A stretch of DNA of 64,000 bases from Cyanodermella asteris. Its lineage: Eukaryota > Ascomycota > Lecanoromycetes > Ostropales > Stictidaceae. The notes below the pieces were generated by a model, which worked only from the letters and a program-made list of their open reading frames with translations, was not told where the DNA came from and ran no database searches. Position numbers and translations under genes: made by a program. The stretch's first letter is position 1. Each line of letters begins with the position of its first letter. Positions 43,823-63,943 of the stretch are shown here, one piece after another. The stretch lies in assembly GCA_900618795.1 (NCBI GenBank), contig UYJD01000001.1:2178840-2242839 (forward strand), read 5' to 3'.

Positions 43823-46800
43823 TTAAGCAGCATCCGCCTCCTTCACACCCAGATTCTCACACACAATCTTGGCAAATTTGGTGATCGTCATGGTCGACGA
43901 CAAGAGCTGCTGGAAAGGGATGTCGAGGGTGTAGTTCTTGAAGATCCAGTTGCGCAGCTCGGAGCCGATCATGCTGTCCAGGCCGTAGTCTGCAATGGCC
44001 GTGGCGTCGGGCTGGATGATGCTGGGGTCGAGGAGCAGCAGCCGCGCCAGCTTCTCGCCAAAGTGCTCGACCACCAGCTCCACGGCCTCGCCGAACGAGG
44101 CCGCAGCCAGGATGGAGCCCTTGTTGGAATCGCCCCCACCGGATGCGCCGGCGCCGGCGTACTTGCGGATGGAGTGCAGGAGCTTCTCGAAGCGGGCGTC
44201 CTCGAGCCAAAACCCGTCCACCGTCTCCGAGGAGTTGACCGACTTTGCGAGGAGCGCGGGGTCCATGCCGATGATGAGCTGGTCGGTGACTGGAGCGGCT
44301 TTCCTTGAGAAGATTGCTGCCTCAAAGGACTGCAGGAGGTGTGTTTCGTCGATACCGTAGATGCCCTTGCGTTTGAGCGCGTCCTCGAGCTCGGGGTTCT
44401 CGGCCACCACGCCGACACCCAACACCATTGGAAGGACGATGGACGTGGCGGGAAGGCCACGTGCGTGTCTCCATCGTGCAAAGTTGTCCATGAAGGCATT
44501 GGCGGCGGCATAGTTGGTCTGACCCGGCGTTCCGAGCGTTCCTGATGTGGACGAGGTGACCAGGAAGAAATCGAGAGGCGCATTTTCGAGGGCCTGGTGG
44601 AGGTTGAAAGCGCCGCGGACCTTGGGACCAATCGACGTGTGCCAGTTTGCATGGGTCATGGAATGGAACATGCCATCTCGTAGGACCATGGCGGCGTGGA
44701 TGACACCGGACACGGGATGAGCAGCAGGAATCGATGTCACGGCCTTGTCGACGTCGGCGGCATTCGATACATCACCGCGGAAAATGTCAACATGCGCGCC
44801 AGCGGCTTTGAGGTCCTCGACCAGCCTGGCGGCAGAGGGTGCATCGGCGCCAGATCGCGAAAGGAATGCGAAACGACGGGCGCCCTTGCTCAACATCCAA
44901 GATGTCAAGCTGCGACCCAGGCCGCCGAGACAGCCGACCAAGAAGTAAGTTCCATCGGGTTTGAGCTGGATCTCTGGTCGAGGAGGGAGGACGGAGAGAC
45001 TCTGCTTTCCACTGTACGAGAGCACAGTCTTGCCAGTAGAAAAGCTCTCCTCGAACTTGGCGACTGCCGTGTCGAGGTCTTCGAGCTGGATGACGTTCTT
45101 GGGTGGCATGACGGAGATCTTGCCTGCCTCGTACATTTTGACGAGATCGCTGAGGATAGTGCTCAGGACCGGGGATGACGACTGCAGCATCTCAACAAAG
45201 TCGAAGGAGAGGTACTGCGCACCGGCATGAAGCGGCACAATGTCAATAGCTGATCTGTAGAGGACATCTTTGCGTCCAAAGTCGACAAAGCGGCCCTGTC
45301 GCGCAATGTAGCGCCAACACTCGCGAGCCAACAGCTTTGGCACAGCGCTGCAACTGAAGACGACGTCAGGTCCCTTGTTATTAGTGCGTTCGAGGATGCG
45401 ACGGCGTAGCAGATCAGGTGCTGGGGAGATGATTTGCTCGTCTGCCAAAGCAAAGTCGCCAATAAGGCCTCCTGCATCCTCGTCCTTCTCTAGCACCACG
45501 GTTACTTGCGCACCGATTGCTTTGCAGATAGTGATGGCTGCAAGGCCAGCAGATCCGGTGGCGCTGAGGATAAAGACAGACTCTCCCGGCTGGACTCTTG
45601 CCAGGTGCGACAGTCCATAAAGCGCTCGACCATAGGCCACAGGAAGGCTAGCGAGCCGCAGAAGGTCTTCACGCTTGGCTTTCACCCTCTGCACTCTGTT
45701 GATAGGCACAGATTGGTAACGGCCCATGTTAGCAGCGTTGAACGCGATGACACAGTCCCCAGCGGCAATGGACGAGACCGCTTTGCCGACGCGGCTGACG
45801 ATACCAGTGATCTCTGTAGAGAAGGTGGTGGGATAGTCTGTGCCGTTGATAACATGAATGCTCTCGCGATTGAGACCAGCGTACAACACCATTATCTCAA
45901 CATGGCCTGGCGACAACGGCTCTCGAGATTGTCTGTCCAGGGTCCAAACAACCTTGTTGTCTCGAATTGTACCCTCAATGGGAGCAGTCTCCTCGATTTC
46001 TTGTAGAGTAGCGTCGTCCGCAGAAGGACCGTAGACACCGTTGAGGGGGGCGTTCGGCACCAGACGACTTATGTGGACCCTGCCATTGGATATGGCATAT
46101 TCCGTTTCGACGACGCTGGTACTAGCAGTTTGCTTGGCGATGCATTTACTGACCAAATCAATGGCATCCGTATCGCTAGTGGTCTCCAGATCCAAATCGA
46201 TGGTGACGAGATTAAGTTGGGCATTTTCCGAAAGCAGTGACCGAGCGAGACCAGAAGCCATGGCATGTTCTGGAGCCTTGCCTTTCATGATCGCGCCGGC
46301 GGATACCCATGTGACTTTGGAGCAAGTCTGCAAGATGCGCTGTAGACCCTCGAGCTCCTTTTCGGCAAGACTGGGCAACATGGGGCCTTCGAGATCTGCT
46401 GCCACGATGACATGATCGTCACCTGTCACTTCACACACAGAAAGCTGTTGGGTCTTGACTTGCGCGTGAGCAGGTAGTGTCGAGGAGAGTTGCTTCGTCA
46501 GGGTAGTCGGTTTGTTCCTATAGACAACAACGAAGCTCTTCGGCTTCGGCTCTGCAGGGACTTCCTCGGCCGTTTCGACCACATCCGCAAGCACAACAGG
46601 AGTCTGCTTGACGGTCACTGCCTGGCCCGACGAGAAACCTGCCACTGCCAAATCCTGCGAGGCTTGGTTTGCGCCATTGATCAGAATGAGGCGGCCTTCG
46701 GGTTTGAGCAGACGTCGAAGGCTGCTGATCTCGTAGGACAAGGCGCGATCCTCGGCGATGACCAGGTCAAAAGCTGCATTCACCGCCTCGTTCTCTCCTG

Positions 46801-49800
46801 CGCTGTCGAGTTTGAGATACTTGTAGTTGGCAGCATTGTCAAGCGCACTCTGGAGAACCGCCGGCACCTCATCAGAGAGATCACCAATTGTAAAATCCAT
46901 GTTGTTGTTGCCGCTGGCCACAGGAAACATCTCCAGCGATGCCGTAGAAGATAGCTGCAACACATTCAGTCCGGAAGACTTGAACGAAAAGAGCTTAAGA
47001 AGTTCCTCGCCCGCCCTGAGACTGGTTTTGCCAGAACCCAGTAGTGCGACATCCTCTTTCCAGACAGAGGCCATATAAGGCTCGCTCTTGAGGGGTTCCA
47101 GAGCTGACTGTGGTCGCGCGGCCTCATATGCGACTGTGCGCATACCACTGATGTCCATAAGCAACTCGCCATCGTCGCTCAGGAGCTGACATCCGCTGTG
47201 GAAGGAACGATGACCACGCGCTCCCGTCCAGGCGTAGGCGTGGCCTTTCGAGGCATCAAGCTGTGCTTGAGTGGGTGGGAATATGGCGACTTCATCAACT
47301 TGAATTGGCACAGCACCACATGTCATGCGATTCAGCTCCCCGGCGTAGATTGAGACGATGATGAGCTGGAGACACGAGTCAACACAGCCGGGGTGCAGAA
47401 CATGGCGAGATTCTCCCTCCATGCTGCCCGCTTCCTGCTTGACAATGGTATCCGCGGCAGCCTCGTACGTCTTTCCGTTGAATCGGATGTTGTCCATATC
47501 CTGGAAGCCGGGGCCGTAGTCGAAACCTACCTCGCGAAGTCCTTGGTTCCATGACTTACCGCTGGCTCTCTGAGGGAATGCCGGAGGTGTGCGGCCAGTC
47601 TCACCCTTTGAACGTCCATTCGCTCGAACAGAACCAGTGCAATGTTCTTTCCACGCGTTCTCGCTCGAATCAAAACTGGTGACATTGAAGTCCCACCAGA
47701 TAGACTTTTCCTCGTGCTCACTGAAGATCGAGGGACGCATGCTCAACATGGTCTCGATACCATCGTCTGTGTCAGGTGTGACCAAGGCCTTCTTGATTGA
47801 GATGTCGCGAAGAATGAATGACTCCGCCGGCTGGGGGTCTGGGCTGGACTCCTCTAGCTGCCGAATTGCCTCAATGGCCATTGAAAAGTAGCCAGCAGCA
47901 GGGAACACTGCCTCATTGCCGAGGGAGTGAGAGTTGAGCCATGGAACATCTCGAATGCGCAGCATGTTGCGCCAAATCGGTTCAAACTTGGATCCGCCAG
48001 GAATTCGTGCTCCAAGAAGATCATGGCGTGGGTACTTGGGCTGCCTATGTTCGGCGGAATGTCTGGACTCAGCCCAAAGCGTCTTGGCATAGTTCCACTG
48101 GTAGTTGGGCAGGTCGACTATGATCGAGCCGCTGCGGAGGTTGAGCTTTCCTGAAGGGAATATCTCCTCAATGGCGGTGACGCGGGTCAAGTCAAGATTG
48201 TATCCCTTGAGGAATAAAGAGCCTGCCGTGCTGAGCAAATTCTCTGCAGATGACTGGTTTCTAACCAGTGTAGGCACATATGCGAGCTTTTCGAACTTAT
48301 TGGCGGCGCAGATTTGGCGAACAGGGCCCGAGAAAGATGAATGAGGACCTATCTCGATGAGAAGATTGACGCCCAAAGACGAATGGTGGCCGATCGTCTC
48401 GACGGCCTCTGTGAATAACACTGGGCTTGTCAAGTTGGCTGACCAGTAAGTCTCATCCAAGGAAGCATCCGGGCCAAGCGGCTTGTTCGTCACCGAGCTG
48501 ATCATCACACACTTGGGTCGAGATGGAATATCAGAAGCGAAAAAATCCGCTGCTTTGCGCATCAGGTTCTCGTACTCGCCAGAAACTGCGAGCATATGAG
48601 GTGAATGGTAAGCCTTGCCGCCAGTATTCACCAATCGTGCAAACACCTTCTCGGCGTCCAGAGACTCTTTGATCTTCTGAAGCGCATCGTTGTCCCCAGA
48701 AAGTGTCACGAGAGAGTTTGAGTTGTGACAGGCAACGCAGACTTCGCTTTCGTAGCCCTTGAGATAGACCGCAACTTGTTCAGGGCTCAGACCCACGGCC
48801 ATCATAGCACCATTGGCATTGGCCTTGCTGACCACTTTGCCACGATAGTATGCAGCGATGATGGCATGGCTGGCGGAGATTATTCCCGCAGCATATGTGG
48901 CTGCGATTTCTCCAGAAGAATGACCGGCTGTGACTGTGGGGGTCACACCCCACTGACCTAGGATATCCACGAGGGCGACTTGTACTGCTGTACACAGGGG
49001 CTGAGAAAACTCGGCCTCGCCAACTCTGGAGGACGCAGCTTCTTCAAGGAGAAGGTCCTCAATTGTCCAATCAGGAGCATCTGGCAGGTCTCCGAGAATG
49101 AAATCTAGGCGTCGAATAGTGCCCATAAAGCTGGGGTAGTATTTCATGAGCTCAGCGCCCATGCGCGGCCATTGGCTGCCCTGACCAGTAAATAAGAAGC
49201 CAGGAACTGGCGCAGCACCCTTCGCCTCTCCAAAGTGAATGCTTGTTTGATTGCTCTCGAACAGGTCAGAAATTGTCTCGCAGTTGGCGATGGCGAAGGC
49301 CCTGTGGTCTAATTTCGAACGGTGATTCGCCAGAGTATGGGACAGATCGTGCAGGTCAAAGTTGCTGACAACCTTTGATAGAGCAATGTTGTTACGCTTG
49401 AGAGTGGGGGCATCATGGGCCGAAAACAAAAGCAGGTGTGGACGCTTTCGAGCGAATCCGCCCCGGGTCTTGGGCTTAGACTTGCGGAAATGGTATCCAG
49501 GGACCAACGACTCCACTGCTTCACAAATGATATGGCCGTTGGTACCGCCGTATCCGAAGCTGTTAACACTCACTCGCTTGACGGGCAGATGCTTGGGGAA
49601 AGGCATTGCCTGCGTGACCGGCTTGATCTTCCATTCGTCCCATTTGATGTTCGGATTTGGCGTGTTCAACTTGTAGATTGGTGGAATGATACCCTTTTCT
49701 ACCGTCAAGCACGCTTTGATCACAGCTGAGAGACCGCTTGCCGCCTCGCTGTGGCCAATGTTGGTCTTCACGGCGCCGATGTTGAGGGGCTCTTCACTCG

Positions 49801-51383
49801 AAGAGCGGTTGTCGTTCATCGCCAGTGAAACAGCATTGCACTCAATGGGATCTCCCACTGGAGTACCGGTGCCGTGGATCTCGAAATAGCCCTTGAAAGA
49901 TGTCAGCATAGGCGCAATGTTTTTATTACGAAAGGCTCCCATTTCTTTCTTTCTTTTCCCTTTTGAAGACTGACGCGCTGGTTAAGGAGGCCATAACGCG
50001 GCATGTACACCGACTGCTGTGGAAACAAACGGTAGAACACTGGGTCTCCGGAGTACAGGCGAAACAGTGTCATCGCGGCGATCTGATCTCGCTTAGAGAA
50101 TACACCGACAGGGACGAATGAGATCCGCTGTGGCCCAGCATGTACTGGTGTTGAGTCTTCGAAAAAAAGAAAAAAAGGAGGGGCCTTTACAGAACAGGAA
50201 AACTTACAGTCAATTTCGGATCGAGGTTGCCCCCGCGTATGTATGCATGTCGAATGACTTCCTCTTGGCCCTCGCGGTTAGGGTAGGTGATTCCAACTGA
50301 AGGCACTTTGCCGTTGCTGTTAACTGCAGAAGATCTGAGACAGGCCCTGATGGGATCGCCATCGCGAAGAGCATCGCTCAAGCGTTTGAGGTAAACTGCA
50401 CCCACGCCATCTGCGCGACCGTAACCATCGGCGCAGGCATCGAAGGTGTGGCATTCGCTAGTATCTGAGAGCACACCAAGTTTGGCAGTGTTCATGTGCT
50501 GATCGACTGTGAGCACGAGATTTGTGCCGCCGACAATTGCGCCTTCGCATTCGCCGTTTCTCAAAGCGTTGCAGGCATTGTGCATGGCGTATACTGAAGA
50601 GGAACAGGCCGTGTTGACGGTAATACTGGGACCGGAGAGGTTGAACACGTGGTTAATGCGGTTACTGAGAATGCCTGGATCGACACCAGTCGCTGGTCGA
50701 GACGTTAGTCAATGGCAAAAGGCCGATGAGCAACTGGACCAACCTGCGTAAGAGTGTCGAAAATCGGGCTCCTTGAAAGACATTTGCTGGTAATCAGCGG
50801 TAAAACTGCCAATAAAAGATGCGGCCTTGGTGCCAGAGATCTTCTCAAGAGGCGTGCCTGATGATTCGAGGGTCTCATACACCACCTCTAAAAGTTTCCT
50901 TTGTTGAGGATCCAGCCACAGTGCCTCAATCGGGGAGATGTTGAAGAGGCCTGGATCGAATTCCTTTAGAGTGGAATCTAGAAAGTAGCCCCCTAGAACG
51001 TTGAAGGACCCGGGACGTTCGTTGTTGGGGTGGTAATGAGCGTCAATATTAAACCTTGATTCTGGGACCTTGGGAGTGCGGCCGGTTCGGTGCTCCATCA
51101 TAAGATCCCAGAGCCCCTCTGGCGAGGAGACATCGCCAGGCAAGCGACAGCCCTTAGTCAAGTCAGTGTCTGAGTAACAAAAACCCTTTACCGAGTGAAG
51201 TTGACGATGACCTACCATGCCGATCACTGCAATCGGCTCTAGCTGCTCTGAAAGCGGCTTCTCGCTGGAGCCTGGAAAACCACGAGCAGCATAGTCCTCG
51301 TCGGAAACGATCGACCAATATTTCTGACTCTGCTCGACGCCCTGGTCAGAGCCAGAGCTACTCGTGTCGTGTATGAAAGGCAT
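43823..51383 (-). CDS. Highly reducing type I polyketide synthase
   Basis: Four exons (51383-51216, 51152-50744, 50692-50208, 49891-43823) give 2376 residues. It should build a reduced polyketide chain from acyl and malonyl units. Domains in order: KS (about 48-480; Cys222 in TACSSS, His360 in HGTGT, His401 in KTNIGHSE); AT (about 587-895; Ser679 in GHSSGE); DH (about 976-1270; His near 1009 in NSHSLGNEAVFPAAGY, Asp near 1192 in HPGCVDS); a short degenerate methyltransferase-like region (about 1300-1430; FDLVIAEDRAL, LLKPEGRLILI, no glycine-rich SAM motif); ER (about 1655-1982; NADPH loop ATGSAGLAAI); KR (about 2002-2219; GCLGGLGR, catalytic Ser/Tyr in TSSTSG and QTNYAAANAF); ACP with Ser2327 in LDSM. 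No C-terminal thioesterase, so release must be in trans or spontaneous. Intron 3 is 316 nt, far longer than the other two (63 and 51). Confidence 0.95.
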
Positions 51384-52230
51384 TTTGGTGAATACGAAGG
51401 ACTGGTACGAAAATGATCGTGTAGACAGCCAAGAGGCTGATCGAGATGGCTAGAAACAGTGAAATCTTCGAGTACAAGACTTCAGATATGAGTTATACAT
51501 CAGCAATCTTGGGCAAGAACTCAGAGGGGTTGATGATAAGCTTTCCGACCAATCAGATTCTTCACTTGAGCTGAAGGACCTAGAGCCCTGTTCCCTCGGC
51601 CATGGCCGCCAGCCATGGCATTGGTGTTTGTGAGCTGAAACAAACCCGGCATGATTGACCGTGTTTCCACGTCAAGCCGCCAGTCCTGGAGATTGGTGGA
51701 AGATAGGACGAGACGGCTGTCCGCGAAAGCGATCGGGTGGCGCACTGGCCTCGGTCTTGTCCTGAGCCGAGTCTTCGGAGGGTTGCAACAACGACGGGGG
51801 AAGGCCGCCATCGATGCCGCTTAGCGCAAGACCGAAGGCATATTTTAGAATGACGGGGTTCCTCGCGCAGGAACGCCACGCGAGCTGACATCGGTGAAAG
51901 CTTCCGTCTCACGGCCTGGGCTCGGATAAGACACAACGCGACGAGCGGCACCGATAAGCTATGGCCATGCTGATGGCAGCGCGTAGGTCGGCCCGTTTGA
52001 GCTGTTGGCTCAGGAAATGCATCCATCAACTTCAGTGCAGGTCAAATCTGGGGGACATGCGCAGGTTCTTATTATCAAGCGGCCATGCCTTAAAATGATG
52101 CAAATGGTTTCACCTTTTCATACATGCTCGGGCTATGAATATTTCCGAATTCTTGAAGCGGATTCTCAGCTGGCTACAAAGCTTTGTGTATCAGGCGAAC
52201 GACATAACTCAAAAATCAACATATGCAAAG
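51384..52230. promoter_or_regulatory. Divergent promoter region, PKS / DUF3237 gene
   Basis: An 847-bp region between the start codons of two divergent cluster genes. It contains TCGG-N12-CCGA at 51751-51770, an inverted CGG pair of the sort bound by Zn2Cys6 dimers. That it is a target of the regulator at 61.7 kb is speculation. Open frames on either strand look random. Confidence 0.4.
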
Positions 52231-52938
52231 ATGGGTGACGATGCGACTCACGTAACGGGCAAGACCGGCTTCGCTTCCCTGAAGCCGAGCTTCGTCATGA
52301 AGGTCAACGTAGGAGACGCAAGCCCGATTGGCGAGGTGTCCAACGGGTCAAACCATTATCACTTTGCAAGTGCCCTCACGAACCCTTCGATGGTGTGCAA
52401 CGTGCTGACTGGAATGCCAGGCAACCAACAGTGGCACCATCAAATCTATTCCTGGAAGCGGCCTGGACTTGGACTTCCAGATCGTTTTTGGAGGCGACTG
52501 GTTGTATTTTGATGCGGACAAGGGCCGCGCTCGCGTCAACCTTCGCGGTATTGCCCAGTGAGCTGTGATCTGCCGCCAGCCGACCACCAATGTGCTGACC
52601 CGAGCCCAGGGACGCCGAGGGTGTACCGATCTCTTTCTCTTATGTAGGCATTGCCTTGATGAATGAGGGAACTGGGAAGATCTTTTCCTATTCGCCAGAG
52701 GCCAAGACGATTCCATTCGGATCCAGCAGTGAGTGATCAAGTCCCCGTAATCGAGCTCTTACTGATGCCACCAGCCACCATCCACACTTTCGAAAGCGGT
52801 CATCCCAAGTACAAGTTCCTTGAGAACAAAACCTGGGCTGGCAACGGTCGATTTGTAGTTCACCCCGAGGGCATGCTCAAGAGGCTGACCGTCGAAAGCC
52901 GGGTTTCTGAGCTGGTTCCATCGACAGACATGGACTGA
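52231..52938 (+). CDS. DUF3237 family protein
   Basis: Four exons are proposed: 52231-52365, 52421-52557, 52610-52728 and 52775-52938, giving 184 residues. Introns 2 and 3 (52 and 46 nt) are ordinary GT-AG. Intron 1 fits best as a GC-AG intron (donor GCAAGT at 52366), the only option found that keeps phase and gives a family-like junction; a GT donor at 52348 (acceptor 52426) is the alternative, with a shorter loop. The fold reads as DUF3237 (small beta-barrel): LKPSFVMKVNVGDASPIGE, then SGTIKSIPGSGLDLDF, GGDWLYFDADKGRARVNLRGIA, SFSYVGIALMNEG, and FLENKTWAGNGRF near the end. No catalytic assignment is known to me. The position, divergent from the PKS, suggests a role in polyketide tailoring. 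An upstream exon cannot be ruled out. Confidence 0.7.
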
Positions 52939-53959
52939 GGCGGCTGACCGTGTAAGGTCAATTGTTGTCGTCCGGCCGGGGGGCCTGCATGAGTTCAAAG
53001 ATAAGACTGGTGTGTCACCTGGCTAAATCGCATCCTCGACGTGGTGAGTGCAAGTCCAATGTACATAGACATCTCGAATGCATGATCTGTGTTGCAAAGC
53101 CAATCGTCTTCGTAAGCCGGGCGCGAATATGCTGCTCGTAGACTCCAGGATTCAATGCAAGTACAGCCAGTACAATACAGCCATCTCATCTTGGTGTCGT
53201 TTGAAATGAAAACGAGGCGACGGATACATGAGGCGCTGTTCAGAGCGAGATCAGCCGACCAAGGCGGGCTGACAGAAGTCGTTGCGGGTGTTCTGCGATG
53301 AGTAGTCTACCTTAATCCTTCCGCCTATACGTACTCTCAGCGCTGCCCATACAAGTACTTGTGGAGGTAACTCCCTAGCTCAGTGTCGGGCGACATCCCA
53401 GATACTGCTAGAAGTACTCGTGAGCATGTTGATCGAAGGATTTACTCCACGAGTCAACTACGAGCGGCGCTGTTGGAAGGCGCGGTGGCAAGTATCACGT
53501 GATGCTGTTTATATAGTTACTCCTTTCTCTGCTAGTTTACCTCATAATCCACCACCATTCTGTTGAGCGATACCGTGAGAGGTCCGTTGGCCCTGTGAGG
53601 CAACGTTGTTGTTAATTCTTTGTGTGCTGTGTTGAACCGAAAAGGGCCTACCGCGAGAGGGGCTTTCTCGTGGTCCGAGGCAACAGCGCCCTCGACGAGA
53701 GCTTTTTCGCACGCAACACGACCTCTGGGCGTGACAGGTCGACAATTGTCTGTGTCCGGTTGGCCGTCGCCATCGTTCAGTCTGGATCTACAACCAACAG
53801 CCAACTTTTCAATCGAGGGAGCTCCTTCAAGCTAGTTCGCTAATGTTTTCCACATTGTAGATACATCTCTTCGTCGTTTTGTGCAGCAGGATTGTCTTGG
53901 GTACATTCTGTATCAAATTGGAAATCTCGGCTCATGTCCTTCGCTGCGCGATATTCTGG
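52939..53959. other. Intergenic, no gene supported
   Basis: About 1 kb between the convergent DUF3237 and DUF2306 genes. Short overlapping frames on both strands at 53532-53843 look random. It contains CCAAGGCGGGCTGAC at 53259-53273, which recurs exactly at 55487-55501. Confidence 0.45.
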
Positions 53960-55066
53960 CTATGCGACCTTTTTGCTTTGTTCGAGAATACCTCCTGGGT
54001 TTTGGACTTGCAATGACTGATCGGCTGAGAGTTGGTCCTTGTTCTTACTCTTCGACTCGAAGTAGATCTCAAGGGCGACTGCATGCAAACAAAGGCAAAG
54101 CCAGAGCTAAGGTCGTTGTCAGTATTTTTCGGATTCTCTTTTCAATAAAGTCAGAAAGAAAACCCATCACTTACACCCATGCCGAAAGTCAGGTCCAAGG
54201 CCGCTCCGACCTGGTCAGGCCTCGAAAGATCAAACTTGCCCTTAACAGCGACCCACTTCTCTTCCGTCGAGTTGACATTACCACACTCTGGATACAGCTC
54301 GGGCACGGGCCTCATGCTCCCGTCGCTGAAAGTTGTTTTCCCTTGGCGCTGGATGAAGTCAAGTTCATGGCAAGGCTTCACGAAGAAGTAGTTGTCCATG
54401 GCCGAGAGCGATATGACTGCTATCGGCATGACGACTCGCGTAGACACAATACAGCCCATCCAGATCATCGCTCTCATCGCCCACATGCGATGCTGGTCGA
54501 TCCTGTGCAGTTTGGCATTGCGCCATGCTTGGTACATCGCGATCTGGCTTCCCACAGCAAGGGTAACGACCGCGCTCTGAACAGCAATGTCTCCACCGAA
54601 TGAGCGCCGCATGACGACGAGAGCGGTTGCATTGCCGATACTCATCAGAGCTATGACGGTATAGCCGTTGATGCGATGAAGACTTAGGGCCTTTGCTCTC
54701 AATTTTGGAATGAATTGTGGGAGCATCAAAATGCCAGCTGGAATTGTGGCGAAAAGATGAATGCGAATTGCCGCCCTGTACAGGCCTTCTCTGAAATAGA
54801 ACCAGTCGCCTGGAGACACGTTTCTGGAAAAGGTCTCGACGTTGAAATAGGTCATTCTGGTCCCACAGAAATACAGCATTGCGAGGCTCAGACCGATGAC
54901 TGGCAATAGCTGTTAGTCGTTGCCCTCTTTCGCGGCTAGATTCTATTGCTCGGAGGTTTTCTACCAACGTACAGAATTTGGCGTTTACGACATCTTTGAA
55001 CCCGAGCGTCTGGGCTACAGAGCTCCACCGCTTGGGCGAAGTCGCCATTGTTTGCTTTGCGTTCAT
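53960..55066 (-). CDS. DUF2306 polytopic membrane protein
   Basis: Three exons, 55066-54973, 54899-54175 and 54106-53960, give 321 residues. The second intron (68 nt, GTAAGT donor) is needed to reach the family-like C-terminus LWLCLCLHAVALEIYF; without splicing the frame stops a few codons later. Several hydrophobic segments alternate with short loops: FIGLSLAMLYF, IHLFATIPAGILMLPQF, GYTVIALMSIGNATAL, AVVTLAVGSQIAMY and WMGCIVSTRVVMPIAVI. HRINGY and HRIDQHRMWAMRAMIW carry conserved His/Arg residues typical of DUF2306 and reminiscent of heme-binding or redox membrane proteins, but no enzymatic role is established. An internal ATG at 55048 is an alternative start. Its place in the cluster suggests a membrane step, inferred only from context. 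Confidence 0.8.
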
Positions 55067-55749
55067 TCTGAGGTTCAGAGCTGTTGAATCCCGATTAAGG
55101 ATGGGGGTGTGGTCGAAAGTGTACAGACGGTGTTCTGCTGGGTTGGACGAGCATGAAGCTTGTCAGAGCACCACAGCCCAGCCTTCAAAGCAATCATCGT
55201 ATGTGTTTGTTGTCTATTGCAGCCATGGCAGGAGCTGTTAACAGGCAATTCCCCGTCCGCAGCGCTGAGTCCGAGTTGTCAGCGGAGACGCAGCGGGACC
55301 GCAGCGGCACTGTGCCGCAGTCCAAGCAAAGACTCGACTTGTCATAATCATGACCGGTGTCTTGGGCCGTTCGGTATCGCTGTTGACGCGATGAATATGC
55401 GCTGACTGCTGATGATGGTCAGCGCTAATCTTCATGGCTCGGGACTTATGGCCGACGCCAATGTAAGCCGCTCAGCCACATGCCGCCCAAGGCGGGCTGA
55501 CTCTCATCTGCAACGAATTGTCACCTCCGCCTCTCCGAACCAGCCCTCGGGCCTGTCTCTATGGCTTCGGATGGCACAGCTGCATCAATGCGCTGACCGA
55601 GATGGAGATGACGAGGGCACTTTTCAAAGAGAAAAAAAAAGAAAGGGCGGGGAAATATTTGGGTATCTTGAGCTGGAATGAGCGTTCTTGCACATTCCAC
55701 CAAGACCTGAACGCTCAGTATCGACGTCTCGTTGCCAGCAACCTGCACC
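55067..55749. promoter_or_regulatory. Divergent promoter region, DUF2306 / SRPBCC-like gene
   Basis: A 683-bp spacer between divergent cluster genes. It holds the second copy of CCAAGGCGGGCTGAC (55487-55501), whose left part forms an inverted repeat CCGCC-CAA-GGCGG (55483-55495). Confidence 0.4.
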
Positions 55750-56631
55750 ATGATTCTCCCAATTACTCCCCAGCAGCTCATTCTTGCCAATCTCGCGCTG
55801 TCGCCCCCTCCGGCAGTTCCTGCAGACGCGCTGCCCGAATGTTCCATCTTCTCGGCCCATCCCTGCGCATGCCCAGCTGGAACGGAGCTGGTAACAAGCA
55901 CGACGTACGCGCAGATGGGCGCCAACGCGAAGGTGATCAAGGAGATTGTGAATGACTGTAAGCGGCCTCCCAGACCTCCCCCCCGAAAATGCCATGATTC
56001 AGTCGACTGACGTTTGCAATCTCAAAGACTGGGATCTCAGCTGGGTCGGAAGCACCATCAAGGAGACTCGAGGATGCCCCAACAAATTGGGCTCGGTCCG
56101 CTTCCTGGACGTCCCCACGAAGCAAGGAGTCTACGAGTGGCACGAGGAGCTCGTCAAGAAGCAGTCGCGCGGCGACGGATCCGTCTTCTTCGAGTACCAA
56201 GTGAAGAACGGTACGCTTCTCTGCCCCCCCCCCCCCCCAGTGAACAATCGATCGATCCCCCCCCCATGAGTCGCGGCAGCTAAAGCATCATCCCAGTGCC
56301 CATTGAGTACCACGGCAAGAACGGCAGCTTCGCGTTCGACGCCATCTCGTTCAAGTCCGAAGCAGTCTCAGAGGTCCAAACGAACGTGTCGTGGCACGTG
56401 CGTGCCTGCCACACCGACGGCCTGCAGGGCTTCCCGGAGTTCCACCAGATCGTGCTCGGGCTGATGCAGAAGGGCCTGAAGGAAGCGGGCCACACCAAAG
56501 GCCCGTACGTCTCTCCTTGGTGCGAGACCGGCGAGAATGTGACGAGTTGGACGAACTCGCTCGACCCGGCGCTGGGCGGCTGGGACCAGCCTGATGAGCT
56601 CGAGCACGAACATTGCGGAGCGTATCAGTAG
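55750..56631 (+). CDS. SRPBCC/START-like small protein (candidate)
   Basis: Three exons (55750-55957, 56028-56210, 56297-56631) close in frame to 241 residues, starting at an ATG in a good context (CACCATG). The N-terminal 45 residues carry a Pro/Ala stretch and three close cysteines (CSIFSAHPCACPAG). From about residue 50 the pattern resembles the SRPBCC ligand-binding fold: a helix (NAKVIKEIVND), then WDLSWVGSTIKETRG, CPNKLGSVRFL, and alternating strands VFFEYQVKN-VPIEY and VQTNVSWHVRAC, ending with a long amphipathic helix (FHQIVLGLMQKGLKEA). Members of this superfamily bind hydrophobic ligands, and some act as polyketide or terpenoid cyclases, so a role on the PKS product is plausible. 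The fold assignment comes from pattern only. Intron 2 contains a C15 tract (56224-56238) and a C9 tract, so its length is uncertain. Confidence 0.6.
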
Positions 56632-57175
56632 CGGGAGAGTATGGTGGCTCTGAGGCGGCAGATGTTTTTCCCCTGTACAAGTAGCTGTATCAAGGGCTTT
56701 GGTTGTTAGTGTGGAAGAGCTTTCAGTTTCTTGCGTGTAACGTCAAGGTCCGGAACATGTTGATGACCTGCTTGGCAACGTCAGCGCTGTGGTAAGGACT
56801 GATTGCACAAGTTCACACACGGCAAAAGTCGCTTCAGATGTCTTACGACAACGCTGCGGCTGGGTGCTATTAGTCCATCACGGCGCCGGAGGGAGTCACT
56901 CAGCATATATGACCCGGAGTGGTATTATGCCCCGATATTGCAGAGGCCTGCGCATTCAGAAGACAGCGTGATCAGTTCAATCGACACAATGCGAGATTTT
57001 CTCTAAACGAAACCCATACGAGCCAACATGTTGCAGCTTCCCGGCCTTCCATTCTCCTCTGCCTGACTCCTTGTGCCCATCCAGGAGCACCCCCCTCGCA
57101 CACTAGTTATCATTGGCAGCTCGATACCCAGAAAGGTACACAGTACTTGGCCTCATCAGCCCACAAGAGGTCCAT
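56632..57175. other. 3' regions of two convergent genes
   Basis: About 540 bp between convergent stop codons. Small frames on the plus strand look random; no gene supported. Confidence 0.4.
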
Positions 57176-58295
57176 CTAGTCAATAAGTTCAATTGATCCG
57201 AAGTCCTCGCTCCAGTACAAGGCCACGCTTAATATAGCTCCTGGGCCCAGAACAAAGCATGCGATGCTCAAGCCAAACACAGCAACTGTCGTATGAAATC
57301 TGACTGTTCCGATCCTCTCCCTCAGCACGAATGCGGCCCAAAATATGCACGTAATGCTGATAAAAAGATTGTCGAAATTCATGAAGAGCGTGGAGCCGTC
57401 TGGCAGATTCATCTCCGATCCAGGTGTGACACTGGCAGGATTCGGCAGGTACACGCCTGCAAAGCTGATACTGCTGGACTTTCCTGCGAGAGCGATGGAT
57501 GCGAGACAGTACACATGCGTCGCTCCACAGACGAGTGCGCTGATCAGATAGGCAGTTTTAATGTGCCACTTGGCTATCAAGTCGTCTTCTCTCTGGCATG
57601 ACCCTCTCATCTGCGGCAGAACCAAAGAGAGAAGCTTCTGAGCTGCCACGAACATCACTGGCCCGAATTGGAACGCAGCAGTTATGCTTTGCACCGTAGC
57701 CGGGTCATCCGCGAATACCAGCGGCGCGCCCATGGCGATGACCACCGGCACGTATGAAGCCAGCAAGAGCGACGGCATCAACGCCTGCGCATCACGAAGC
57801 GGCAGTGGGCGCGTCAACCTCTTGCCGAAGGAAAAATAGATGCAACAGTACAGTGGGAGGATGAAAGCCGCGCCGACTGCGTTCCAGAGAAAACCAATGA
57901 GCGCCGTGCTACGTACTGATCAGCGGGCGGGCTGCGTCGCATTAGAATCTTACTCACGTATTCAGAAGCCAGTGCTTGCTATACTTGCGTTGGGATTCCA
58001 CCGTGATCCACAGTATGGCGCTGTGAAGCGTGACAAGGACATCCAACATGAGTAGTCTGCCATTGGGGTTGCTTCGGTCAAGCAAGGGATCAAAGAAAAT
58101 AACCAATGTGGCAAGGCTGTCATCGAGAAGGTATATTCCAGTGTAATCTGATGTCAAGGGCTTGCCTCCTGGCAGTGTCTTGCTGGCCTTGATACCATCA
58201 ATGGATGCCAGGGTGCCGTTCATGAGCATGCGAATCCATAGGCTGTGGAAGGCAAAACCTGCAACCAGAATGAAAAGCCATGATTGACGAGACAT
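57176..58295 (-). CDS. Polytopic membrane protein, unknown family
   Basis: Exon 1 is 58295-57958 and exon 2 is 57908-57176, with a 49-nt intron; 356 residues. The N-terminus SWLFILVAGFAFHSLWI is a first membrane span or signal anchor. About seven more hydrophobic segments follow: LATLVIFFDPLL, LDVLVTLHSAILWI, ALIGFLWNAVGAAFILPLY, LLLASYVPVVIAM, ITAAFQFGPVMFVAAQKLL, AYLISALVCGATHVYCLASI, FISITCIFWAAFVL and FGLSIACFVLGPGAILSVAL. The size and topology are larger than the seven-span Pyr4-type terpene cyclases, and I see no known cyclase or transporter signature. Acidic and aromatic residues are enriched near loops (FFDPLLD, YWSEDFG). A membrane-bound tailoring enzyme or a transport role are both possible, neither proven. 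Divergent from the FMO gene. Confidence 0.75.
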
Positions 58296-58797
58296 GGCTG
58301 ATAGCAAAATTGAGAGTGTGTATCAGGAGAACTGGTGAGGCTTGGTGAACGATGGTGCAATCATGTCGCTGGCGAGCTGGCTGTGAGACCTTTCATTATC
58401 TCGATGCAGACACAGAACGCCCACTTACTATGCCACACGTCTTGCTGACTGCACCAGGACTTGATAGGCCGTCGAAGATAAGGGCGTAAGCAGCCGCGGG
58501 TATGCAACCCGAGCGACCTGTCGGCGCTTTCGGGGTGGCATGAACAACGACTACGTTGCGAGAGGCGTAAGCGGAATCGGGCGCATAATCAGAGCGGAAT
58601 TCCCGCCCTTCATCGGGTCGAGGCGTACGATGGCTGCAATGGACCGAAAGCTGTCAGCTACGCCGTTTTGACAACCAGTGTGGCGGTCGGGGGCTTCCAT
58701 GCCGTGTCTCCAGCGGTCTTCGACTGCGCTGAAGTAGTGATCATGAGTGCAGAGCCTAGAATAATTCAGATAGACTAGTTTGATCGGTACCATACTG
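58296..58797. promoter_or_regulatory. Divergent promoter region, membrane protein / FMO
   Basis: A 502-bp spacer between divergent cluster genes. It has a direct repeat CGG-N6-CGG at 58522-58533, a possible Zn2Cys6 half-site pair. Confidence 0.35.
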
Positions 58798-60720
58798 ATG
58801 TCCACCTTTGCACCACGCCGGATCTTTGAAGGCGACACCATGGCCAGCGAATCTCCAGAGAATTTTGATGTTGTTATTATTGGTGCAGGATGGTACGGCC
58901 TCATCGCAGCGTACACTTACCTTCGTGTAGCTCCAGCAACAAGACTTCTGATAGTCGACGATGCCGAGTCCATCGGCGGCGTCTGGTCGAAGGAGCGGAT
59001 TTACCCTAATCTTTTTGCTCAGGTCGGGCATGGACTCTTCGAGTACACGTTTTACCCAATGAGAAAGGAGGGACTTACTCCAGACCGCTATATCTCAGGA
59101 GAGACCATCAGCAAATACCTCTACGACTTTGCTCACGACCACAACCTCGCCAAAACCATTCGCCTGCGGACCAAGATCACCAAGGTCGACAAATTAGACT
59201 CTGGGAAATGGCTGCTCACCTCTCCAAGCCTTTCCCGTCCGCTTTGTTGCGACAAGCTCATCGTCGCCAGTGGGGTTACTTCTCAGCCGCACATCGTTCA
59301 GTTTCCCAATTCAGGCTTCGATGGAACAATCATGCACTCTGCCGATCTGGGAAGACAGCTCACGTATCTCCAGAGTCCCAAAGTCAAGCGAGTTCTCGTA
59401 TTAGGTGCAGCCAAAAGCTCTTATGATGCCGTCTTCTTACTATTGAAGGCCGGCAAACGCGTGGAATGGGTGATCCGAGAGGACGGAAGTGGCCCGCTTG
59501 CAATAATGCCTCCACGGTAAGTCTCCCAGCAGCGTCGTTTATCCGCGAATGATGATTGAGTGGCTGACGCGGGCGCCAGTCTGTTCGGCTTTCTCAACAC
59601 GGTCGACGTGATGGCGACCCGAGCATGTGCGGCGTTCTCGCCAGCCATCTTGAATGCCCACGGATTATGGTATCAAATGCTGCAGAAGACGAAGATCGGA
59701 CGTCTTTGCGTTCGAGGCTTCTGGCGAGTGGTCAATCAGTGTGCTGAAATGCACGCTGGCTACGGTCGAACCGAAAATGCCCGAAAGCTGCGGCCCTTGC
59801 CGCATGGAGAGGGCATCATGTGGGCCAACGCTGGTCTGGGGCTCGCAAGCGTGCCTGACTTTTGGAAAACATTCCATGCGGGCGACATAACCGTGCATCG
59901 GACCAACATCAAATCGTTTGGAGAGGGCGACCAAGTGCATCTCAAGGATGGCACGACTGTGGGAGTCGACGCCGCAATCCTTTGCACAGGCTGGACGCAT
60001 AATTTGAACGCCTTTGATGAGGATTTGCGTGTCAGATATGGGCTGCCATCCTCGCGTGACTTTGATCCTGATTGGCAGCGATTGGATGCCAAGGCCGAAG
60101 CAGTTGTCGATGAAGCGTTGCCTTATCTCAAGAATGGGCCAAGGACCGAAACAGAACACACCCAGAAGAGGCCATGGCGGCTCTACAAGCGGCTTGTCAG
60201 TCCAACGGCTTCTTCTGAGAATGACCGATCGGTCTTCTTGTAAGTCGAACCTCAATGTGGGAGGGGTGTCCTTTTGCTGACCGTCATCTCGGATAGCCCG
60301 GGCCAGATACATTCGGTCTTCACGCCTTTAGTCGCCGAATTCCAGGCGCTCTGGGGTGTTGAGTACCTGCGAGGCAATGTCAACTTGCCGTCACTCGAAG
60401 GCATGAAAGCTGAGGTTGCAGTCTGGGGCGCATGGACTTCCAAGCGTTATCTCGAGCAGGGTAGGCCATGGAAGAATCCCAGGACAAAAGCTTGGTGTTT
60501 GAGACTGACATAAGATGCTTCTCCAGGCCGGCGTCATGCTTACTCTATTTACGATTACCTCGCGTATTGCGACGACCTCGCTCGTGACCTCGGAGTCCGG
60601 CCGCAGAGAAAAAGGAACGCAGTGTTGGAGATGTTCCAGCCGTACAGACCGAGTGACTATCGAGGTTTGATCGACGAATACCTGGCGGCGAATCCGGCCG
60701 TAGCTAGCCAGCGAGGATGA
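58798..60720 (+). CDS. Flavin-containing monooxygenase-like enzyme
   Basis: Four exons (58798-59516, 59580-60239, 60297-60460, 60527-60720) give 578 residues; a second ATG at 58840 gives 564 and starts right before the nucleotide-binding strand. FAD is bound by VIIGAGWYGLIAAY (GxGxxG, near residue 27). The FMO-type motif FDGTIMHSADL is present and the second dinucleotide motif VLVLGAAKSSYDAVFLL should bind NADPH. ILCTGWTHNLNAF is the late FAD-contact segment. The family inserts one oxygen from O2 into soft nucleophiles or ketones; substrate unknown, presumed to be the PKS product. The full Baeyer-Villiger fingerprint (FxGxxxHxxxW) is not met because the last Trp is missing. A phosphopantetheine or signal peptide is absent; cytosolic or membrane-associated. 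Confidence 0.88.
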
Positions 60721-61716
60721 CAGATCCCTCGTGGCCATTTGTAGGGGGGGGGAAACGGCCCAAGGGAGATCGGGCCACCGCCTTACTGCTCCCAACGCTC
60801 GGCAGCACGACGTGGGCGGGTCGCCAAGTAGGAATCATGTCGGAGCGATGGCGTGCGGTGGGCGAGAGGGTGTTGCTGCAAGAACACGACTGTCAATTCC
60901 CAGCGTATGCTACTTACTAGTGGGGTATTTACCGACCTGTAATAGCAGGCAGGTATCACGTGAATTCAGGGGTTCTCTTGGCGCGTTGTTCTGACAAAAT
61001 AGCACTTAGTCTCAAGTCAATTCATTCATTCAATACGCGTTCTTTTCGATGATCCTTGCACTCGCGTAATTGCTCTCGTAATACCTCTGCCGCAATGGGC
61101 GAAATCCCTTGCTGTCGCAGATACGCCATGCCGTTCAGGGACGGATCCAAAGTTGGCCTGGTGGGCGGCGACTGCAGTGAATCTGACATTCGGTAAGACT
61201 GCGTCTGGGATCGACTAGCGGCCATCAGGCATGACCCAGTGTCAGAGGGATAAGACGTGGCTAAGATAGCGCAGCTGGACGCGATGCTGGAGTGAAGCTG
61301 AAGCTAAAGAGAGCCGAGCCGTTGGGCGCCAAGCAGACTCCGACGACTCCGACGCCGTCTGGCGCTGCTGAGTGGCCGGCCACTTCACTCCATTCCCTGC
61401 TGAATTGCAGCGACTGCTCAGCCGATCCTCCACCATGCAATAATGCAACGCCAGTATCACTCTATCTGCTAACACAGAGTGCAACCCTGCATAAGCCGAG
61501 CGGCTCGGTGTAGGAATACAACAACAACAACAACTCCATCTGCTAAGCGGCTCCCTATCCACTGAGCGCCACGCTGAGCCCAGAACTCCAGAACCCCAGA
61601 ACCCCAGAACCACAGAACCCCAGCAAGTCCAGCCAGAAAGGCCGCTTCAGGCCTGCCTTATCGCCTCGCCGGGCCAGGAGAGCGAGCTTATTTATATCAA
61701 GTAGTCCAGCTTTGCC
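60721..61716. other. Upstream region of the Zn2Cys6 gene
   Basis: About 1 kb between the FMO stop and the regulator start. A 67-codon minus-strand frame (61225-61022; LDPSLNGMAYLRQQGISP) looks less random than its neighbours but matches nothing I know. A CCAGAACC tandem and a (CAA)n run (about 61521-61536) lie close to the start. Confidence 0.4.
61580..61619. repeat. 8-bp tandem CCAGAACC, five units
   Basis: Five near-identical 8-bp units (one CCAGAACT, three CCAGAACC, one ACAGAACC) about 100 bp upstream of the Zn2Cys6 regulator start, inside its probable 5' leader. Confidence 0.85.
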
Positions 61717-63943
61717 ATGTCGCATTTCAACGACAAAAAGACCCGACACATGGCCTGCCACCTCTGTCGCGAGCGCAAGGTCAGATGCGACGTATGTGAC
61801 CCTGCCTGTGGTCGAGCGAGAGTGGAATCCAGAAGTATCCTGACTGCATCTAGGGCGTACAGCCTACCTGTAGCCGCTGCCGAAGGCTGGGCAGTGAGTG
61901 CATCTATACCACCGATCGCCGCCTATCCAGCCGGGACAACGAAAGGCGCCTCAACGAGGCCATTCGCACGCTCAAGGAGCGTCTATGTACAGTCTCCTGC
62001 CGCTCGAGCTTCACATGGACTGACCATTCCTGGCAGCCGACGCCGAAGCCAAGCTGAACGATCGCCAGAAGCCACCCTCAAGCGTCGAGATCTTGCCGGC
62101 TCTTGACTTCGACACTTTGCCCGACAGCGATCAATGCTTCGATGTTTTTGCTCAATTCAACGATTCCGCAGCTTTTCCGACCCAGCGATTGCAGGACGTG
62201 CCCGAAGAGTGCACTGCGCTGGCCTCCACTTCATCCGATGAGTCCTATTTCCACCAAGCTGCTCCCCAGCCTGCACCACAGTACAGCAGGAACAACCAGT
62301 CTGGGCATCATCAGCGGACACTCAGTTCGAGGCCGGAGCTCAGCGCTTCCAGGTATGTGCCATCTTCCAATCGAGGCCACCCAAGCGTTGCACGGGCTGA
62401 CTTGTTCCAGCTACGACATTTACTTTGACTGCATGCACCGATGCTATCCTTTCCTCGATCGCGACCGCTTCATGGATACAACGAGATCTCCTAATCAGAC
62501 TCTTGCATTTATATCGCTGAAATATGCCGTCGCGATGCATAGTGCATGTCTCTCCGATCCCGGCTCGCCGAGTGTGACCGCCTTGTACCGGGCAGCACGT
62601 TCCTCGCTGGAAACGGCAGAGACCGAGAGCGCGACCAGCACGAGCGAGCTCGCCTTCCTTCAAACCTGGATTCTCATTATTATATACGAGCTGCGCAACC
62701 AGCCCTTCGTGCAGGCTTGGGCGCTTTCTGCAGGGCGCGCTATCAGATTAGCTAAGGCTCTAAAAATGCACATGATGGACGCGCCAGCGCACTGTCAGCA
62801 GAGAACCCGACGACCTGGCTTTGAGCCATGCCTGTCTCCCACGTGTGACCCTATTGAGATAGTGGGTTCCCTATTTGAGCAGGGACTTGGCATCCAAAAT
62901 GAGCCCGCGCTAACTCTGTCCTCCGCAGGAGAACCGTCGCTACACCTTCTGGACTGTTTATCTCATAGATTGGTATGGATCGGCTAGAACGGAGTGTGAC
63001 ATGACATTTGACTACAAAGAGGTATTTCCCATCACCGTCGACACCCTGCAGTATTTGACCGTCTTCCCAGGTATTCACCCTGTTGCCAGCCAAACCTGGT
63101 GCCCCGCGCCTGTCGCTCGCTCAAGCAATGGCAAATCTTGCGTCTTCATGTGCATCCATCACCCCTTTCGGTGCTGGCATAATTACTTTGGCCATACATG
63201 GCCGTCTTCTTCGCCACATCAGCCTCAGCAAATCCTTTGACCTACTTTCCGCTACACCCAGCTATGACTTCTGGTCAGAGCACTGGCGAATATCACAATT
63301 ATTCGAGCAGTGGTATGCTTGTCTTTCCCACCATCTATCTCTTGCAAATGCTGGCAACGACCCGAGTATTATTAGTCTGCACATCAACACATGGGCCATC
63401 TCTATCGGACAGAATGACGTGGCCACGGTAACGATTGAACGTACTGGATATTCGCAAGCAATGCTGCAAGATTGCCAAAGCAACTCACTCGTCGCTGCCG
63501 CCTCCATTGCGAACCTCGTTCGTAGCGCAATCAAAGCCAACTTCGCTTTTACTCGTGTAAGTAACAAGATCCAGATCCTTGACCGTTGTTCCGTGGCTCA
63601 CAGCTGTGTCTCAGCTGGACCCTGGTATCACCTGGAGTCTATACATGGCGGCCATGGCCTGCTTGAGCGCCCTTCGTCGGACACCTGGCGACATTTCAAT
63701 CATGTCGCATCTTGAAATACTTCTTGAAGGCTTCCAGAAGTTCCAGCACATAGCGCCACGTATTGACACGTTTGTTTCGATAGTAGGTTCCCACCTCCGG
63801 CTCGTCAGAAATACCGCTGAGATAATCTCGCTGACCGTGCCCTCACCCAGATCTGCCAGGAGTACGAGTCTCTACCACCGGCACAGCTTGCCAGACCCGT
63901 AACTTCGACGACGACGACAGAATCATCCCCAGTATACATCTAG
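61717..63943 (+). CDS. Zn2Cys6 fungal transcription factor (probable cluster regulator)
   Basis: Eight exons (61717-61791, 61854-61986, 62037-62352, 62411-62861, 62929-63021, 63071-63556, 63615-63782, 63851-63943) close in frame to 604 residues. The zinc cluster lies at the N-terminus, CHLCRERKVRCD joined over intron 1 to GVQPTCSRCRRLGSEC: the six cysteines in CX2CX6CX6CX2CX6C spacing. A basic linker and a short heptad-like helix (RRLNEAIRTLKERL) follow, typical for dimerisation. The middle homology region starts near residue 150 with YDIYFDCMHRCYPFLDRDRF and runs to ENRRYTFWTVYLID over the fourth intron. Intron 4 (62862-62928, GTGGGT donor) and intron 5 (63022-63070) were placed by phase and family pattern and are the least certain. 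Being next to the PKS cluster, it is the obvious candidate regulator. Confidence 0.87.

Follow-up and report, generated by a model that had tools for sequence, protein, structure and literature searches.

Gene content of the locus

We analyzed a 64-kb stretch of contig UYJD01000001.1 from the ascomycete Cyanodermella asteris (the window; all positions below are window positions), for which an original prediction had described a highly reducing polyketide synthase (PKS) cluster of seven genes. All seven were recovered at about the positions first assigned to them, across ~43.8 to 63.9 kb (gene models, Pfam). They encode a reducing PKS (43823..51383, minus strand), a DUF3237 protein (52231..52939, plus strand), a DUF2306 membrane protein (53960..55066, minus strand), a protein of 241 amino acids (aa) (55750..56631, plus strand), a polytopic membrane protein of 356 aa (57179..58295, minus strand), a class-B flavin-dependent monooxygenase (FMO; 58798..60721, plus strand), and a Zn2Cys6 transcription factor (61717..63902, end approximate, plus strand). 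Apart from the regulator, all six genes have intact reading frames. The three divergent pairs seen originally are real, with 847, 683, and 502 bp between the start codons of PKS and DUF3237 (51384..52230), DUF2306 and 241-aa protein (55067..55749), and membrane protein and FMO (58296..58797), respectively.

As predicted, no cytochrome P450 was found near the locus; of the 102 P450 matches that the genome yielded with 92 of 164 candidates scored, the nearest on the contig lies ~112 kb away. The stated lack of transporters and thioesterases held for what was scanned, since a Pfam scan revealed neither family among 20 of the 73 open reading frames (ORFs) that reach 100 aa in the 40-64 kb interval. 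The genome-wide search for major facilitator superfamily (MFS) proteins covered 9 of 304 candidates.

Conservation of the gene order in lichen fungi

A table published for the reindeer lichen Cladonia rangiferina contains a row of six ORFs (06819-06824) adjoining the atranorin genes atr1-4, namely a reducing PKS (2377 aa), a DUF3237 protein (184 aa), a DUF2306 protein (301 aa), two hypothetical proteins (236 and 356 aa), and an FMO-like protein (565 aa) (PMC8262933, Table 1). The six types and their order are alike in C. asteris, where the lengths are 2376, 184, 321, 241, 356, and 564 or 578 aa. Going by this table, synteny is thus not confined to the PKS, and the accessory set, originally considered unusual, is not unique to C. 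asteris. The two loci differ in that the row in C. rangiferina adjoins a non-reducing PKS cluster, whereas an L3-like ribosomal protein gene adjoins here, and in that the table lists no regulator within the row, whereas a Zn2Cys6 gene is present here. Although the row has been tabulated, we found no study of it in the literature searched.

The legend to figure 2 of PMC9146135 mentions reducing PKS, DUF, hypothetical protein, and FMO-like genes for a drawing of Bacidia rubella versus C. rangiferina; for the atranorin region of B. rubella, this legend leaves the species assignment and the order of the genes unstated. In Letrouitia transgressa, a PKS (LQ342_006318, 56% identical) and a DUF2306 protein (LQ342_006322, 44% identical) carry near-adjacent locus tags and lie on contigs of equal size (119,549). 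This was the only such pair seen by eye among the named entries of the 80 DUF2306 matches and the best 120 of 1006 PKS matches. Where the close relatives of the PKS, the DUF2306 protein, and the membrane protein are named, they belong to Teloschistes, lichen fungi.

A common palindrome in the divergent promoters

The palindrome CGG-N9-CCG is present in all three divergent promoters, at 51647 and 51892 between PKS and DUF3237, at 55355 and 55440 between DUF2306 and the 241-aa protein, and at 58497 between the membrane protein and the FMO. Of the 19 such sites in the window, 5 therefore sit in the 2.03 kb of divergent promoters. As a control, the three promoters were shuffled 1000 times with dinucleotides preserved. 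All three contained CGG-N9-CCG in 3 shuffles, and none of the 1000 had five or more sites in addition; when the inverted spacing was free to vary between 0 and 20, 2 of 1000 did as well. Everted and direct repeats had been examined too, so that the true correction is larger. Both 3'-3' gaps are free of CGG-N9-CCG as well as of everted N10 and direct N12 sites.

Zn2Cys6 factors bind CGG triplets. In the regulator of the cluster, the zinc cluster (PF00172) falls short of its cut-off (17.4 bits versus 21), whereas the Fungal_trans domain (PF04082) reaches 30.3 bits (cut-off 23); the two lie on separate exons, and the six cysteines are, by eye, spread over two exons. Because all three divergent promoters carry the palindrome, their sequences support co-regulation of the cluster. 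Together with the gene order in C. rangiferina, the near-adjacent locus tags in L. transgressa, and the parallel occurrence of close relatives for the PKS, the DUF2306 protein, and the membrane protein, this backs the view of the locus as a plausible biosynthetic unit.

The PKS and its enoylreductase motif

The PKS gene comprises a single 2052-aa frame and three upstream exons (exons 51216-51383, 50744-51152, 50208-50692, and 43823-49891), which join to 2376 aa without internal stop. According to Pfam and motif reading, the domain order is ketosynthase (KS), acyltransferase (AT), dehydratase (DH), enoylreductase (ER), ketoreductase (KR), and acyl carrier protein (ACP), with the catalytic residues kept: TACSSS, HGTGT, and NIGHSEA in the KS, GHSSGE in the AT, the H and D motifs of the DH, the Y motif of the KR, and YGLDSM in the ACP. 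C-methyltransferases are optional in highly reducing fungal PKSs, and no methyltransferase family occurs among the 15 Pfam matches of this one. The third intron (49892-50207), which lies within the KS, is 316 nt long compared to 63 and 51 nt for its neighbours, and its sequence occurs once in the genome.

The usual NADPH motif of an active ER is GGVGQ. At this site the ER of the cluster reads TGSAGL, and the broader pattern GG[VMIL][GA]Q was missing in all 120 PKS relatives examined (the best 120 of 1006 matches), each of which has letters there; it was still missing when 150 columns on either side were read. As these 120 are the best matches, the altered motif is characteristic of their clade. 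The genome, an assembly of 28.5 Mb in 25 contigs with 24 KS matches (counted as pieces, not genes), holds seven other ER-like matches. By position, five of them lie in PKS genes, of which two (L031 and L033) keep GGVGQ and two others read GGVSQ (L032) and GGLGL (L030); the remaining two matches (L035 and L036) look like stand-alone reductases. The fifth PKS match (L034, C12:779951-780802) has wholly lost the motif. A changed motif by itself is no proof of inactivity. Judged from the sequence, the ER domain of the cluster PKS is nevertheless probably not functional. The domain order and the catalytic motifs are those of a highly reducing PKS, but the label "highly reducing" is doubtful as to full activity, since the ER motif is altered here and in all 120 relatives.

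The closest relative of the PKS was found at 85% over 84%, and further relatives at ~50-56% are spread over many fungi (again among the best 120 of 1006 matches). Five of the 120, at 49-55% identity, are automatically named "Reducing polyketide synthase DEP5", after the depudecin cluster. Depudecin is a bis-epoxide with a linear C11 chain that bears no methyl branches, a structure that would suit a PKS lacking an active ER and C-methyltransferase. The depudecin cluster encodes a pair of FMOs plus an MFS transporter, whereas the locus studied here has one FMO, along with DUF2306 and DUF3237 genes, and no transporter was seen at 43.8-64 kb among the 20 ORFs scanned.

The DUF2306 protein and the FMO

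The DUF2306 protein (PF10067, 44.8 bits, cut-off 31.6) is encoded by exons 54973-55066, 54175-54899, and 53960-54106, and the 321-aa model uses an AG acceptor. A search returned 80 homologues, four of them at 81-87% identity. In an alignment of 73 of these (7 short ones excluded; numbering on P0008), four histidines are strongly conserved: H79 (68/69), H106 (72/73), H168 (73/73), and H281 (62/69). The residues Q167, H168, R169, W171, R174, R186, C208, and C237 are kept in 73 of 73. P0008 was modelled with high confidence (mean pLDDT 90.5). Judging from the helix lengths in this model, H106, H168, and H281 would lie close together towards the same end of the bundle, with both cysteines in a loop at the opposite end. 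Such a layout would be compatible with a metal or heme site at the histidine end and a disulphide at the cysteine end. A heme-binding membrane cytochrome fold of the b type was considered for the protein; no solved fold clearly matches the model. Further DUF2306 matches are present elsewhere in the genome (L015 on C11, L017 on C15). In addition, we noticed a 15-bp direct repeat, CCAAGGCGGGCTGAC, at 53259-53273 and 55487-55501, in the gap at the 3' end of the DUF2306 gene and in its promoter; both of its 14-mers are found nowhere else in the window.

A functional precedent for this family comes from the DUF2306 protein PraC, on which an epoxidation step of the pramanicin pathway depends and which turns pramanicin-A into its epoxide in Aspergillus nidulans, whereas an empty-vector strain did not form the epoxide from fed substrate (PMC12895699). 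The authors leave the mechanism open and consider a role as scaffold or redox partner possible. The pramanicin cluster praA-D, which includes a PKS fused to a nonribosomal peptide synthetase (PraA) and a short-chain dehydrogenase/reductase (praB) (PMC12895699), resembles the C. asteris locus in combining a PKS-type megasynthase, a flavin monooxygenase, and a DUF2306 membrane protein. It differs in that its description names an MFS protein but neither a DUF3237 protein nor a second polytopic protein.

The FMO gene has four exons and encodes 578 aa, or 564 aa from a second ATG at 58840. Class-B FMOs are marked by two Rossmann motifs and FxGxxxH; the protein belongs to this class (PF00743, 59.2 bits, cut-off 22) and shows GAGWYG, GAAKSS, and FDGTIMH, the second Rossmann motif being degenerate. 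Against the PDB set, a plain flavin-dependent monooxygenase ranks first for its N-terminal part, which also matches monooxygenases for phenylacetone, steroids, and cyclohexanone. The extended stretch FDGTIMHSADL, as we take it, resembles a plain FMO more closely than it does the Baeyer-Villiger fingerprint.

The DUF3237, 356-aa, and 241-aa proteins

The DUF3237 gene (PF11578, E 2.8e-24, 86 bits, cut-off 24) looked broken at first, because GT donors keep the frame only at the cost of a conserved segment. All conserved parts stay in frame when the first intron is read as GC-AG (52366-52420, donor GCAAGT), and only then; the gene is open as it stands and encodes 184 aa (exons 52231-52365, 52421-52557, 52610-52728, and 52775-52939). 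Further DUF3237 matches occur elsewhere in the genome (L019-L024, on C5, C14, C7, and C15), among them one on the contig of the window, ~36 kb to its left. The domain is also carried by PinX, which is 42% identical to the decarboxylase PhcG and 38% to PhcF, and for which its authors predict decarboxylation and furan opening. By analogy with PinX, and with PhcF and PhcG through their similarity to it, the protein of the cluster may act in decarboxylation. In the literature searched, we found no role of DUF3237 in fungal polyketide chemistry.

The 356-aa protein (exons 57958-58295 and 57179-57908, stop codon just past) has nine hydrophobic segments on the Kyte-Doolittle scale and no Pfam family name. 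Seven matches at 69-81% were obtained from 7,998 scored candidates in a search that requires shared words; the named match is from the lichen fungus Teloschistes exilis. For the 356-aa protein of C. rangiferina, a 32% match in Aspergillus has been reported (PMC8262933). Given this match and the demand for shared words, distant relatives may well exist. One distant paralogue was found in the genome of C. asteris, a 418-aa protein on C20 (L014, 1459-2712), which aligns over nearly the full length (hhalign E 6.4e-5, probability 64%, 25% identity). This near-full-length alignment suggests that the 356-aa protein probably belongs to a wider family lacking a Pfam name. Close to the paralogue are a P450 and a phospholipase-like frame, and C20 has no KS match.

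FMOs and membrane-bound epoxide hydrolases are paired in fungal polyene pathways; AurD, CtvD, and AscI are membrane-bound epoxide-opening enzymes that act after the oxygenase (PMC12312803, PMC8827043, PMC8902786, PMC8235479). The pathways to aurovertin (AurC/AurD), citreoviridin (CtvC/CtvD), and ascofuranone (AscI) resemble the C. asteris locus in the combination of an oxygenase with a membrane epoxide-opener on a lipophilic chain, but differ in the chain itself, which is a methylated polyene pyrone or a prenyl group. It is a guess from this context that the 356-aa protein acts in the manner of AurD, CtvD, or AscI.

The 241-aa protein (exons 55750-55957, 56028-56210, and 56297-56631) had been called SRPBCC-like, which we could not support: neither Pfam nor NCBIfam gave an SRPBCC or polyketide-cyclase match at E <= 10. 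No family scored above its cut-off in these databases, with a weak DUF3010 match below it, and a search of the genome returned only the exons of the gene itself.

Surroundings of the cluster

The left flank, at ~41-42.3 kb, is occupied by what we take, by eye, to be a ribosomal protein L3-like gene. Past the right edge of the window, part of ~29 kb examined holds ordinary-looking genes, one frame of which is presumably DNA polymerase epsilon-like (named by eye). Just past the regulator, at the right end of the window, the bases flanking a long stretch are alike in inverted orientation (translations).

A possible pathway and its alternatives

The gene cluster itself is well supported, and from it we infer co-expression, the substrate, every enzymatic step, and the product. 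Our leading explanation, to which we would give an even chance, is a conserved lichen-type cluster of seven co-regulated genes that yields an unmethylated polyene chain oxidised without a P450. The Zn2Cys6 regulator would bind CGG-N9-CCG in the three shared promoters and switch on six genes together. The PKS would then build a linear, unmethylated chain, most units of which would stay alkenes because the ER looks inactive, giving a polyene acid. Into this acid the class-B FMO and the DUF2306 protein might insert oxygen, most likely as epoxides in line with the PraC precedent; the polytopic membrane protein might rearrange or open an epoxide within the membrane, and the DUF3237 protein might remove the terminal carboxyl group as CO2, as the decarboxylase precedent suggests, or aid ring opening. 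The product and chemistry had been called unpredictable. This applies insofar as the steps are proposed from gene content, yet the chemistry is not wholly unpredictable, because published functional precedents exist for both DUF2306 and DUF3237.

Several observations weigh against this explanation. The N9 spacing was chosen after arrangements of all three kinds (inverted, everted, and direct) had been scanned, each divergent promoter also has one everted N10 and one direct N12 site, and the 987 bp upstream of the regulator hold none of these three sites. The C. rangiferina row was compared by type, order, and length with a table that gives no strands. A common ER motif is to be expected of a clade, which the best 120 of 1006 relatives represent; the ER keeps two glycines and could still bind NADPH; and the comparison with other PKSs of the genome is a mixed control, as GGVGQ is kept in just two of the five with an ER match. 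The putative likeness to the depudecin PKS comes from labels on 5 of the 120 relatives, and another 5 of the 120 are automatically named lovastatin synthases. Most DUF2306 members are 28-44% identical to the cluster protein, so that function may differ; PraC is likened to it by the shared domain. The 356-aa protein is tentatively likened to AscI, AurD, and CtvD by its polytopic membrane nature.

The main rival to a polyene product assumes an ER that still acts on part of the units, which would leave the chain largely saturated, and an FMO of Baeyer-Villiger type forming an ester or lactone, in which case the DUF2306 and membrane proteins would work on a fatty-acid-like product. The full length of the ER and its retained T-G-x-x-G core fit this, as do the matches of the N-terminal part of the FMO to the three monooxygenases named above, although a plain FMO ranks first. 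The replacement of GGVGQ here and in 120 of 120 relatives and the FDGTIMHSADL stretch, closer to a plain FMO, speak against the rival, which we regard as possible but rather doubtful. A further alternative leaves all oxidation to the FMO and makes the DUF2306 protein a membrane redox partner or a protein for export or self-protection. The PraC authors keep a scaffold or redox-partner role open (PMC12895699), and the model has no clear match among solved folds; against this stand the epoxidation of fed substrate by the PraC strain but not by the empty vector (PMC12895699), and the conservation of four histidines (62/69 to 73/73) and two cysteines (73/73), which suits a cofactor site. We hold a non-oxygenase role to be conceivable, though on the unlikely side.

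It has also been considered that the pathway consists of the PKS, the FMO, and the DUF2306 protein only, with the DUF3237, 241-aa, and membrane proteins as bystanders. PKS relatives at ~50-56% do occur in many fungi, compared to only seven matches of the membrane protein, the one named among them being from a lichen fungus. This alternative appears improbable given that the six types keep their order and similar lengths in the C. rangiferina table, and that each supposed bystander shares a palindrome-bearing divergent promoter with a pathway gene. Finally, a decaying or silent cluster without product might be suspected from the 316-nt intron that splits the KS and from the regulator model, which stops short of the gene end; with six of the six other genes intact and the KS, AT, DH, KR, and ACP motifs present, we consider decay very improbable.

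Significance

The six-gene row in Cladonia and the promoter palindrome in C. asteris mark a kept pathway, whose main points of interest are the pairing of DUF2306 with DUF3237 and the small number of relatives obtained for the membrane protein. To pramanicin the cluster adds a second case for asking whether DUF2306 proteins act as oxygenases, and it also raises the question of what DUF3237 contributes to fungal polyketide chemistry. In its most specific form, which we consider unlikely as a whole, the P450-free lichen pathway would have a cofactor-bearing DUF2306 protein and the FMO epoxidise a polyene acid, a new polytopic class open the epoxide, and the DUF3237 protein decarboxylate. If this were true, it would be the first role in fungal polyketide synthesis for DUF3237 and for the 356-aa family, and the DUF3237, 356-aa, and DUF2306 proteins would work as one membrane-bound assembly. 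Overall, if the polyene reading is true, it would tie lichens to epoxidised linear chains, outside the well-known aromatic depsides.

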